The notes under the pieces: model-generated | What the model saw: the letters and a program-made list of their open reading frames with translations, nothing else | Told to the model about the DNA's origin: nothing | Database searches by the model: none | Source: Flavobacterium zepuense | GTDB taxonomy: Bacteria > Bacteroidota > Bacteroidia > Flavobacteriales > Flavobacteriaceae | Assembly: GCF_007097145.1 (NCBI RefSeq) | Contig: NZ_VJVZ01000011.1 | Location: forward strand, 1-64,000 | Length of the DNA stretch: 64,000 nucleotides | Reading direction: 5' to 3' | Position numbers and translations under genes: made by a program | Shown: positions 18,103 through 19,922 of the stretch, one piece after another | Position numbering within the stretch: the stretch's first letter is position 1 | How the letters are laid out: each line of letters starts with the position of its first letter

Positions 18103-18642
18103 ATGGCACTTCAAAAGCCTTTTAACCTTAATAAATGGATCGAAGAAAACCGTCATTTACTTAAACCTCCTGTTGGTAATAAAAATATCTATCCACTGTC
18201 TGACGATTATATTGTAATGGTGGTTGCGGGCCCTAATGCCCGTAAAGATTACCATTATAACGAGACCGAAGAACTATTTTACCAGTTGGAAGGCAGTATT
18301 AAGGTTGTTGTTCAGGACGAAGGCGAGCGTAAGGAGATGGAGCTTAATGCCGGCGATATGTACCTGCATCCGGGTAAAGTGCCGCACTCACCCGTTAGGG
18401 GAGAAAATTCTATTGGGCTTGTGGTAGAACGTGTTAGGGCAGGCCGCGGTTTTACCGATGGGCTGCTATGGTTTTGCGAAAATTGCAACCATAAACTATA
18501 TGAGGTTTTCTTTGAGCTCCATAACATAGAAAAAGATTTTTTACCCCACTTTAAGCATTTTTATAATAGTGAAGAGTTGCGCACGTGTGATAAATGCGGC
18601 ACGGTTTTACCTGCCGATGCCCGTTATGTAGATTATGATTAG
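18103..18642 (+). CDS. 3-hydroxyanthranilate 3,4-dioxygenase
   Basis: A 179-aa cupin of the usual bacterial length. It opens the ring of 3-hydroxyanthranilate with Fe(II) and O2 in the kynurenine route from tryptophan to quinolinate/NAD. Metal ligands fit His and Glu in DYHYNETEELFYQ (~46-58) and His in the HPGKVPHSP stretch (~88-96). The C-terminal rubredoxin-like iron site is complete: CENC (~126) and CDKC (~166). No other kynurenine gene is visible in the window. The dispersed repeat lies directly upstream. Confidence 0.92.
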   Translation: MALQKPFNLNKWIEENRHLLKPPVGNKNIYPLSDDYIVMVVAGPNARKDYHYNETEELFYQLEGSIKVVVQDEGERKEMELNAGDMYLHPGKVPHSPVRGENSIGLVVERVRAGRGFTDGLLWFCENCNHKLYEVFFELHNIEKDFLPHFKHFYNSEELRTCDKCGTVLPADARYVDYD

Positions 18643-18684: not shown

Positions 18685-18692
18685 TACCTTTG
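18685..18692 (+). promoter_or_regulatory. -7 element (TACCTTTG) of corA
   Basis: A TAnnTTTG match 43 bases after the preceding stop codon. Transcription would start near 18698, leaving a leader of about 108 bases before the corA ATG. Confidence 0.5.
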
Positions 18693-18716
18693 CAAAAATT
18701 CTATTTTATTTCAAAA

Positions 18717-18755
18717 ATGGACGAAGACGATCATCAGAAGAAACTAATCACGTAG
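18717..18755 (+). CDS. Possible 12-aa acidic leader peptide upstream of corA
   Basis: ATG at 18717 opens a 12-codon frame encoding MDEDDHQKKLIT and ending in TAG. It begins about 18 bases after the predicted transcription start, with an A-rich start context. Four acidic residues directly follow the initiator Met. The stop codon abuts a hairpin (18756-18780), and the corA ATG follows 26 bases later. The layout resembles Mg-sensing leader peptides known upstream of enterobacterial mgtA and corA, but a 12-codon frame can arise by chance. Confidence 0.35.
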   Translation: MDEDDHQKKLIT

Positions 18756-18780
18756 CAGGAAAAGCCATTGCTTTTTCCTG
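18756..18780 (+). promoter_or_regulatory. Hairpin in corA leader (attenuator-like)
   Basis: CAGGAAAAGC pairs with GCTTTTTCCTG (10 bp, one bulged T) around a 4-base loop. The left arm starts right after the TAG of the short leader ORF, so a ribosome at that stop would cover it. No T tract follows, so a simple intrinsic terminator is less likely. Confidence 0.5.
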
Positions 18781-18806
18781 TTGCCTAACTATGGGAAATT
18801 GCAATT

Positions 18807-19733
18807 ATGGTAACCTTTTACAAAAAAAGCAATGGGCTGGCTATAGCCCAAAGCATTACAGATGCCGCGTGGATTAGCTTGGTAAACCCTACACCTGCGG
18901 AGACTGCATTTTTACTCAACGAGCTAAAAATACCCGAAGCCTTTTATAACGATATTGAAGACGTAGATGAGCGCCCCCGTATGGAACGCGAAAACGGATG
19001 GCAGCTGGTTATTGTGCGCATTCCGCTTAAGAATGACAGCGAACGCCTGCCGTACACTACCACACCATTGGGCTTTATTTTTAAGGATGACATTTGCATA
19101 AGCATCTGCTTTACCCAAAATGAGGTTATAGACGATTTTATTGCCTACACACAGCGCAAAAACATTACGCCTCAGGATAATTTTACACTGGTGCTGCGCA
19201 TTTTAGTTTCGAGCAGTATCTGGTTCCAAAAATACCTCAAGCAGGTTAACCAGCGTATTAAGGTAGCTGAGAACAATCTGGAGAAATCCATCCGCAACGA
19301 AGACTTGCAGGAACTTTTGCAGATAGAAAAATGCCTGGTGTTCTTTATTACCTCGCTTAAAGGCAACGAAATGCTGTTTTACAGGCTGCGTAACCTAAAA
19401 ACCCACAAAGAGACCTTTGACCCGGAACTTATTGAAGACGTAGAGATAGAACTCCGCCAGGCACAGGATACCACTAATATTTACAGCGATATCCTTACCG
19501 GCACTATGGATGCCTATGCATCGGTAATATCCAACAACCTTAACGTTATTATGAAACGGTTAACCTCAATTTCCATTATACTTATGATACCTACATTGGT
19601 AGCCAGCTTTTATGGTATGAACGTACCCAACAGCCTGCAGGATAACCATTACGGGTTTTATATCGTGGCGTTGGTGTCTTTCCTGATTAGTATAGTAGGT
19701 GTGGTAATGTTTAAGAAAAAGAATTTGTTTTAA
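18807..19733 (+). CDS. corA: CorA-family magnesium/divalent cation transporter
   Basis: A 308-aa member of the CorA/MIT family. The long cytoplasmic funnel domain contains alpha-helical runs (~120-240). Two C-terminal membrane helices flank the selectivity motif YGMN (~268-272) and the protein ends in a basic tail (KKKN). It forms pentameric channels for Mg2+ (also Co2+ or Ni2+). The ATG at 18807 was chosen because the upstream sequence in this frame has no suitable start. The gene has its own promoter and a structured leader with a short acidic ORF and a hairpin. Confidence 0.9.
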   Translation: MVTFYKKSNGLAIAQSITDAAWISLVNPTPAETAFLLNELKIPEAFYNDIEDVDERPRMERENGWQLVIVRIPLKNDSERLPYTTTPLGFIFKDDICISICFTQNEVIDDFIAYTQRKNITPQDNFTLVLRILVSSSIWFQKYLKQVNQRIKVAENNLEKSIRNEDLQELLQIEKCLVFFITSLKGNEMLFYRLRNLKTHKETFDPELIEDVEIELRQAQDTTNIYSDILTGTMDAYASVISNNLNVIMKRLTSISIILMIPTLVASFYGMNVPNSLQDNHYGFYIVALVSFLISIVGVVMFKKKNLF

Positions 19734-19756: not shown

Positions 19757-19850
19757 ATTCCCCTCCTTTGGAGGGGTGCCCGTAGGGTGGGGTGGTTTAT
19801 TCATTTTAAAGAACCACCCCGGCTTTCAGCCACCCCTTCAAGGGAGGGGG
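19757..19850. repeat. Palindromic REP-like element, copy a
   Basis: A long imperfect palindrome: cccctcctttggaggggtg at the left pairs with caccccttcaagggaggggg at the right, and GGGGTGGTT pairs with AACCACCCC inside. The same element lies at 46247-46346, and its right half at 47790-47832. Confidence 0.8.
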
Positions 19851-19886
19851 AAAACCACGATTGCTACTATGATAACGATAAATTTA

Positions 19887-19922
19887 AAAGCCGTGATTTA
19901 CACATTGTAAATCACGGCTTTT
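19887..19922. terminator. Bidirectional terminator between corA and metB-like gene
   Basis: A 16-bp perfect stem (AAAAGCCGTGATTTAC and its complement) with a 4-base loop, with A/T tracts on both sides, between convergent genes. Confidence 0.8.

Follow-up and report, generated by a model that had tools for sequence, protein, structure and literature searches.

What does a 12-codon open reading frame do immediately upstream of corA in Flavobacterium zepuense? The window, that is, the whole stretch of 64,000 nucleotides analysed (contig NZ_VJVZ01000011.1, positions 1 to 64,000), had been the subject of a preliminary description, in which a TAnnTTTG promoter, a 12-codon frame, a 10-bp hairpin after its stop codon and corA 26 bases further on were proposed to form a Mg2+-sensing leader. 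The coordinates of all these elements were confirmed. The function of the leader was approached by comparing corA leaders, by modelling their folds and by relating them to known Mg2+-responsive leaders.

The corA leader in the window

The features of the locus are as follows.

18685..18692, + strand: promoter -7 element (TAnnTTTG), TACCTTTG, placed by the position of the motif across leaders
18717..18755, + strand: upstream open reading frame (uORF) of 12 codons, MDEDDHQKKLIT, ATG to TAG, with the stop codon TAG at 18753-18755
18752..18765, + strand: segment 1, the 5' arm of the 1:2 hairpin, overlapping the uORF stop codon
18767..18784, + strand: segment 2, pairing with segment 1 via 18770-18784
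18767-18771 and 18774-18781, + strand: segment 2 in its alternative pairing with segment 3
18791..18806, + strand: segment 3, adjoining the corA start codon; 18791-18798 and 18801-18805 pair with segment 2
18807..19733, + strand: corA, 308 aa, CorA-family Mg2+/Co2+ channel, from matches to PF01544 and to solved chains

The product of corA matches Pfam family PF01544 with E = 1.9e-52 and solved CorA chains with a best E of 1.2e-18. Judging from the promoter-like motif, transcription probably starts a few bases 3' of TACCTTTG, about 20 nt upstream of the uORF. The hairpin arms, CAGGAAAAGC (18756-18765) and GCTTTTTCCTG (18770-18780), form 10 bp with one bulged T and a CATT loop, and 26 bases separate this stem from the corA start at 18807. 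RNAfold lengthens the stem to 14 bp (18752-18765/18770-18784). The hairpin downstream of the uORF is present as first described, but a second structure competes with it. Segment 3 had been missed, and therefore also the likely output of the leader, which is access to the corA start.

A 3-hydroxyanthranilate dioxygenase-like gene (18103-18642, PF06052) lies upstream of the leader, and a similar gene end apparently precedes several other corA leaders, not all, as seen by eye. Also by eye, the stretch between corA and the next gene was found to be GC-rich with inverted repeats cccctcctttggagggg ... ccaccccttcaagggaggggg at 19760-19850, and to contain at 19886-19922 a palindrome, aaaagccgtgatttacacattgtaaatcacggctttt, resembling a bidirectional terminator.

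A short acidic uORF is conserved upstream of corA

Close leaders were collected from two partly overlapping sources, namely 391 confirmed relatives of corA, of which the best 80 were kept, and 17 strong-match loci of a genome search; the set is without the weak CorA matches L018-L030. Removal of L015 and L017, in which the match start has no ATG nearby, and of 8 duplicates from these 97 loci left 87 distinct leaders. A uORF starting with Met-Asp or Met-Glu is present 81-98 nt upstream of the corA ATG in 86 of them, the exception being L092. As leaders had to carry GA in codon 2 to pass the filter, this count is not unbiased for that codon, a bias that affects one leader. The conservation of a short frame with an acidic start, which had been suggested as a check, is thereby borne out. 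Peptide length is 8-14 residues in all but one of the 86 leaders, the exception being L045, where the stop codon has been lost and the peptide has 24. The commonest start is MDDYYS (57/86); the leader of F. johnsoniae CI04 (L088), for instance, encodes MDDYYSLVFN. The four acidic residues that had been pointed out after Met do occur in the uORF of the window (DEDD), but they are not general: the usual core is Met-Asp-Asp, in which Asp3 is not universal, since MDS, MDT and MEG are seen. A start of the form M[DE][DE] is found in one of the 50 ATG-started frames of at least 150 codons in the window. The uORF of L015 is MDDYHPKRNYQLL. In genome G019 (L181/L017), corA contains internal stops; the leader is retained and the uORF ATG is lost.

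The TAnnTTTG motif ends 19-30 nt 5' of the uORF ATG in 78 of the 86 leaders. Among the remaining eight, seven have TAnnTTCG at this place and L016 has neither; TAnnTTTG was located between the uORF and corA in two leaders of 86. Relative to the hairpin, the uORF stop codon falls between -12 and +4 nt in 85/86, so that the stop-to-hairpin spacing, whose conservation had been suggested as a check, is kept.

Codon changes were counted along a tree built from 93 CorA proteins. None was found in uORF codon 1, and the six in codon 2 all fall on the third base (0, 0, 6), at least four being silent and two replacing Asp by Glu. The number of changes per base is 3/3/4 in codon 3, 4/5/5 in codon 4, 8-13 in codon 5 and 6-12 in codon 6, and each of the 15 bases upstream of the uORF has undergone 10-29 changes. 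Because changes are few at codons 1-4 and more numerous at codons 5-6 and upstream, constraint bears on Met-Asp-Asp-Tyr/Ser and weakens along the peptide; thus the peptide seems to be kept, and not the RNA alone.

This pattern bears on amino-acid attenuation, in which uncharged tRNA would cause stalling at Tyr, His or Asp codons. Many members indeed carry YY, HH or YH at uORF codons 4-6. However, Asp2 alone is near-universal, codons 5 and 6 vary freely and codon 4 varies in part (MDDSST, MDDDRK, MDSSLR, MEGSHR), and a cation channel would be an odd target. Attenuation by Tyr or His was rejected on the ground that codons 4-6 are not kept like Asp2, and we regard amino-acid attenuation in any form as highly improbable. 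The other early concern was that a 12-codon frame, by itself unremarkable, could have arisen by chance, together with a chance hairpin. This is excluded by the presence of the uORF in 86/87 leaders and in genomes of six other families, and by the single significant place found in the own genome with the leader model R1 described below; on the leader comparison, the probability left to coincidence is negligible.

Two pairings compete in the leader

In most leaders, among those listed, the hairpin's 3' arm has a second possible partner in the bases just 5' of the corA ATG. The two pairings were evaluated within and across species, segments being mixed only between species with unlike segments. 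The pairing energy of 1:2 is -11.9 kcal/mol within versus -6.1 across species, that of 2:3 is -11.5 versus -5.7, and the control pair 1:3 shows no gain, with -3.3 versus -3.5 kcal/mol (n = 86 throughout). The own pairing tops every foreign one in 16/86 leaders for 1:2 and in 36/86 for 2:3, and it ranks within the top 5% in 54/86 and 63/86, respectively. When compared with shuffled segment 3, 2:3 reaches z < -2 in 81/86 leaders.

With the 43-row alignment, RNAalifold returned just a 5-pair hairpin, because MAFFT leaves the segments of the clades, including those of the window, out of register. The pairing test within and across species was therefore used, together with a 19-row subset, A2, from which the leader of the window is absent. 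On A2, 16 cells of 2:3 are changed on both sides, which was equalled in 0/500 shuffles, slid versions of the helix giving 1 to 6. Five pairs are changed on both sides (23/500 shuffles as high), and the number of pair types is no higher than in shuffles (218/500). The result is moderate for 1:2, with three pairs (131/500 shuffles as high) and 6 cells changed on both sides (17/500, one slid version giving 7). Together with the better pairing of 1:2 within species, the latter are the compensatory stem changes for which the preliminary description had called.

In nine wider leaders, eight from outside the genus and one from inside, z is about -2 or lower for the hairpin region in eight and for 2:3 in seven; L134 and L139 have no 2:3 pairing above chance. 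The predicted 2:3 helix reaches the corA ATG and in some leaders extends into it. The co-evolution of both pairings argues that the leader has two mutually exclusive folds, as also predicted by modelling. From the comparison of leaders, it is near certain that corA is preceded by a conserved uORF and by RNA that can pair in two ways.

An additional pairing between the uORF start and segment 1 is possible at z < -2 in 13/86 leaders, e.g. L040, L043, L048, L050, L069 and L080. The leader of the window is outside this group, and a four-segment build with its first segment in the uORF was not found there. The idea that the uORF start is kept for this pairing was set aside: it could apply to these 13/86 leaders, but covariation on the 19 rows of A2 lends it no support.

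A stable hairpin at the uORF stop codon could also be an intrinsic transcription terminator or could stabilise the mRNA. No T run follows it: the next 9 nt hold a mean of 1.9 T, and at least six in 2/86 leaders. An intrinsic terminator was rejected for this reason, and neither function accounts for 2:3 co-evolving as far as the corA start, so that we consider this reading improbable. Two alternative folds in front of a gene for a metal transporter would equally be expected of a metal-binding riboswitch, the uORF then being incidental. However, the invariant columns of the 43-row alignment, which is poor across clades, lie in the promoter and the uORF start, with a single T in the hairpin arm, and no long ligand-binding core is visible in it. 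Codons 1-4 of the uORF are strongly kept, and Rfam gave no match at the gathering score in the window, the best weak match of the leader (E = 3.5) being unrelated. A riboswitch is thus slightly less probable still than a terminator or a stability element.

In Bacteroidota, translation mostly starts without Shine-Dalgarno sequences, according to the sections of PMC6847099 cited here. GGAGG/GGAGA-like sequences of this type, unusual for the phylum, were noticed in segment 3 of L135, L136, L138 and L139; in L135, the sequence lies within the predicted 2:3 helix.

A predicted switch at the corA start codon

The footprint of the ribosome was modelled with its edge set 15 nt beyond the first base of the P site. 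A ribosome that has reached the uORF stop codon would cover a mean of 83% of segment 1 and touch the 3' arm in 3/85 leaders, whereas one whose P site holds codon 3 would leave segment 1 wholly uncovered. The stop position correlates with the start of the hairpin (Spearman 0.68 over 85 leaders, uncorrected for kinship).

The following mechanism is proposed. Upon full translation of the uORF, the ribosome at the stop codon would hide segment 1, 2:3 would form and the corA start would be closed (OFF). Should the ribosome pause or drop off on the early acidic codons, segment 1 would be free and 1:2 would form first during transcription, so that the corA start would remain open (ON). As low Mg2+ would weaken ribosomes carrying acidic nascent chains, a shortage of Mg2+ would raise the amount of CorA. 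The sensor would be the Mg2+ dependence of the ribosome itself and the device a translational attenuator.

At equilibrium, the folding calculations did not separate the two states, the corA start being unpaired at 0.38 versus 0.35 between ribosome positions. Per leader, 75/86 were within 0.2, nine differed as predicted and two in the opposite direction. A switch would therefore have to depend on 1:2 forming first. When 1:2 was kept, the corA start was unpaired at 0.55 versus 0.34 with the ribosome at the stop codon (86 leaders; the mask for L045, which has lost its stop, was set by hand). The value was higher by more than 0.2 in 38/86 leaders and lower by more than 0.2 in none; the leader of the window itself showed little difference (0.61 versus 0.57). 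The helices are of similar strength, with means of -11.0 for 1:2 and -10.2 for 2:3 and 1:2 stronger in 52/86, which is what a kinetic switch would show. In F. johnsoniae, structure near the start is associated with lower translation, an effect called subtle in the cited part of PMC6847099, and closing the corA start should therefore matter. The uORF and the leader are likely to constitute a translational attenuator of corA.

The signal

The anatomy of the leader indicates a sensor of ribosome position, which does not fix the signal. Low Mg2+ is inferred to be the likeliest one, by analogy with mgtQ, mgtL and corL of Salmonella. As reported in the relevant parts of PMC11282234, acidic pairs within the first 30 residues cause ribosome pausing or dissociation in E. 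coli, and MgtL does so at low Mg2+. Near the start, most of the uORFs described here encode two acidic residues and lack proline, and the destabilisation of the ribosome may therefore be mild. The same attenuator could respond to another signal, such as elongation or initiation capacity, polyamines, or a factor of the ABC-F or EF-P type acting on the early acidic residues; EttA of E. coli indeed acts on early acidic residues, according to the same portion of PMC11282234. Against this, the device was found before corA only, as far as seen, which fits feedback by the transporter's own ion. Another signal is thus a less likely option, although one with a sizeable share. Taken as a whole, the reading of the leader as an attenuator that would receive a Mg2+ signal through the acidic nascent chain is the best single one, with a probability of about 0.6, the Mg2+ part resting on analogy.

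Distribution and specificity of the device

In a sample of 295 genomes of the class, corA was detected at E <= 1e-40 in 43, the own genome included, and the upstream DNA was read in all 43. The canonical uORF is present in 12/43 (own genome included), from six families (f1, f68, f83, f71, f47 and f76), and a seventh family, f9, was added by a separate genome search (L015 and L016). Eight genomes at the class level and outside the genus have an M-D/E uORF; the wider peptides comprise MDDYHPEID, MDDSIPRETKTVSNK, MDDSNPRPYSKSIN, MDDYHAENMNL and MDDYPADGNQRVKP.

A different arrangement, an acidic frame overlapping the corA start out of frame, was found in 10/43 genomes, eight of f18 (L150-L153, L158, L160, L161 and L199) and two of f32 (L167 and L168), all 10 genomes read there having it. 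It is opened by ATGGACG, ATGAACG or ATGGAAG immediately 5' of the corA ATG; the frames start with MDDD, MNDD or MEDDPD and have 21-51 codons in the nine measured. The remaining 21/43 genomes carrying corA have neither the canonical uORF nor the overlapping frame. They include L144, where an MDT-starting frame, MDTNRTSLLMPY, lies at -82 inside a longer upstream frame. No acidic uORF was found upstream of corA in L146 and L141; absence of the device in L159, L162-L166 and L200 was judged from the upstream DNA and a motif search. In a sample of 299 genomes of the family, corA was detected at E <= 1e-40 in the own genome and one other (L128), the latter lacking this uORF.

A covariance model of the leader, R1, was built from 43 leaders. 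Its single significant match in the own genome was the corA leader (E = 6e-9, the next match being at 0.2). In 40 relatives, 13 matches at E <= 3.4e-6 were all at corA, 12 intact and one the broken corA of G019. Several of these 13 leaders were part of R1, and the informative part is therefore the genomes without this corA: the 27 relatives of this kind gave no match below E = 5.6e-4. The match at this value, L182, falls on the beginning of an unrelated coding frame and was taken as chance. Weak matches up to E = 0.1 raise the number of relatives with some match to 24/40; in another search seven more were at E = 0.0026-0.0075, and those in the own genome were at E >= 0.2. No such uORF was seen in the 160 nt upstream of mgtE and of the second corA of the own genome, the first ATG of each frame being assumed to be the start.

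Relation to known leaders

Translational attenuators of the erm type have a leader peptide, exclusive hairpins and a hidden start, and respond to a drug-stalled ribosome. The corA leader would share the leader peptide, the exclusive hairpins and the hidden start, and the signal of erm is different.

In Salmonella, mgtQ is flanked by two genes within a single operon under PhoP control, and MgtB differs from CorA in transporter type. Unlike the intra-operon mgtQ, the corA leader is situated between its own promoter-like element and corA. A segment order like that of mgtQ is possible in 13/86 leaders, whereas the corA leader is usually three-segmented. According to the cited sections of PMC8092293, two acidic residues of the 8-aa peptide MgtQ, Asp2 and Glu5, stimulate the translation of mgtB by way of alternative stem-loops. 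In both systems the uORF is very short and its second residue is Asp; translational control by alternative stem-loops that open or close the start of a Mg2+ transporter, as in mgtQ (PMC8092293, same sections), is predicted for corA. One predicted fold of the corA leader covers the transporter start, as in an attenuator of the mgtQ type.

Control of Mg2+ transporters of Salmonella and E. coli by acidic uORFs, on which the first proposal had drawn, is supported by the portions of PMC11282234, PMC8092293 and PMC11552253 cited here. The Enterobacteriaceae pairs mgtL-mgtA and corL-corA share with the present leader a uORF before a Mg2+ importer gene, acidic in MgtL (Glu2, Asp4), two exclusive leader folds, and low transporter expression when the uORF is efficiently translated (PMC11552253 and PMC11282234, in the parts cited), the last two being predictions for the present leader. 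The translation of corL is inversely related to the expression of corA in E. coli, according to the cited part of PMC11552253. In mgtL and corL the output is mainly Rho-dependent transcription termination, and those leaders are longer, with a three-way junction, whereas the fold described here reaches the start codon (same parts of PMC11552253 and PMC11282234). From its sequence, the short early-acidic uORF upstream of a Mg2+ transporter gene appears to be of the mgtL/corL/mgtQ kind. The corA RNA motif is likewise a leader of corA genes, but it is described from Gamma-proteobacteria and metagenomes only in the cited part of PMC6429828.

Among the matches listed from openly licensed papers, no such corA device is reported in Bacteroidota. 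The suggestion that a comparable device would be new there may hold for corA, but not for leader attenuators in general, Bacteroid-trp (RF01692) being listed in Bacteroidetes in the pertinent part of PMC2864571. Short frames in long 5' UTRs are described in the transcriptome of B. thetaiotaomicron, corA not being mentioned in the cited portion of PMC7366714.

Significance

To our knowledge, there is little work on the control of Mg2+ in Bacteroidota. Tentatively, and at somewhat less than even odds, ribosome instability on an acidic nascent chain may serve generally to gauge Mg2+, having evolved independently in Gammaproteobacteria and in Bacteroidota. The latter would then have two builds, the three-segment attenuator and a minimal version, the out-of-frame frame over the corA start in f18 and f32, in which drop-off itself would free the start. 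A uORF switch kept over several families would offer a ready test of whether destabilisation of the ribosome by acidic peptides widely reads intracellular Mg2+, and its natural variants MDDYY, MDSSL, MEGSH and MEDDPD would reveal which residues matter.
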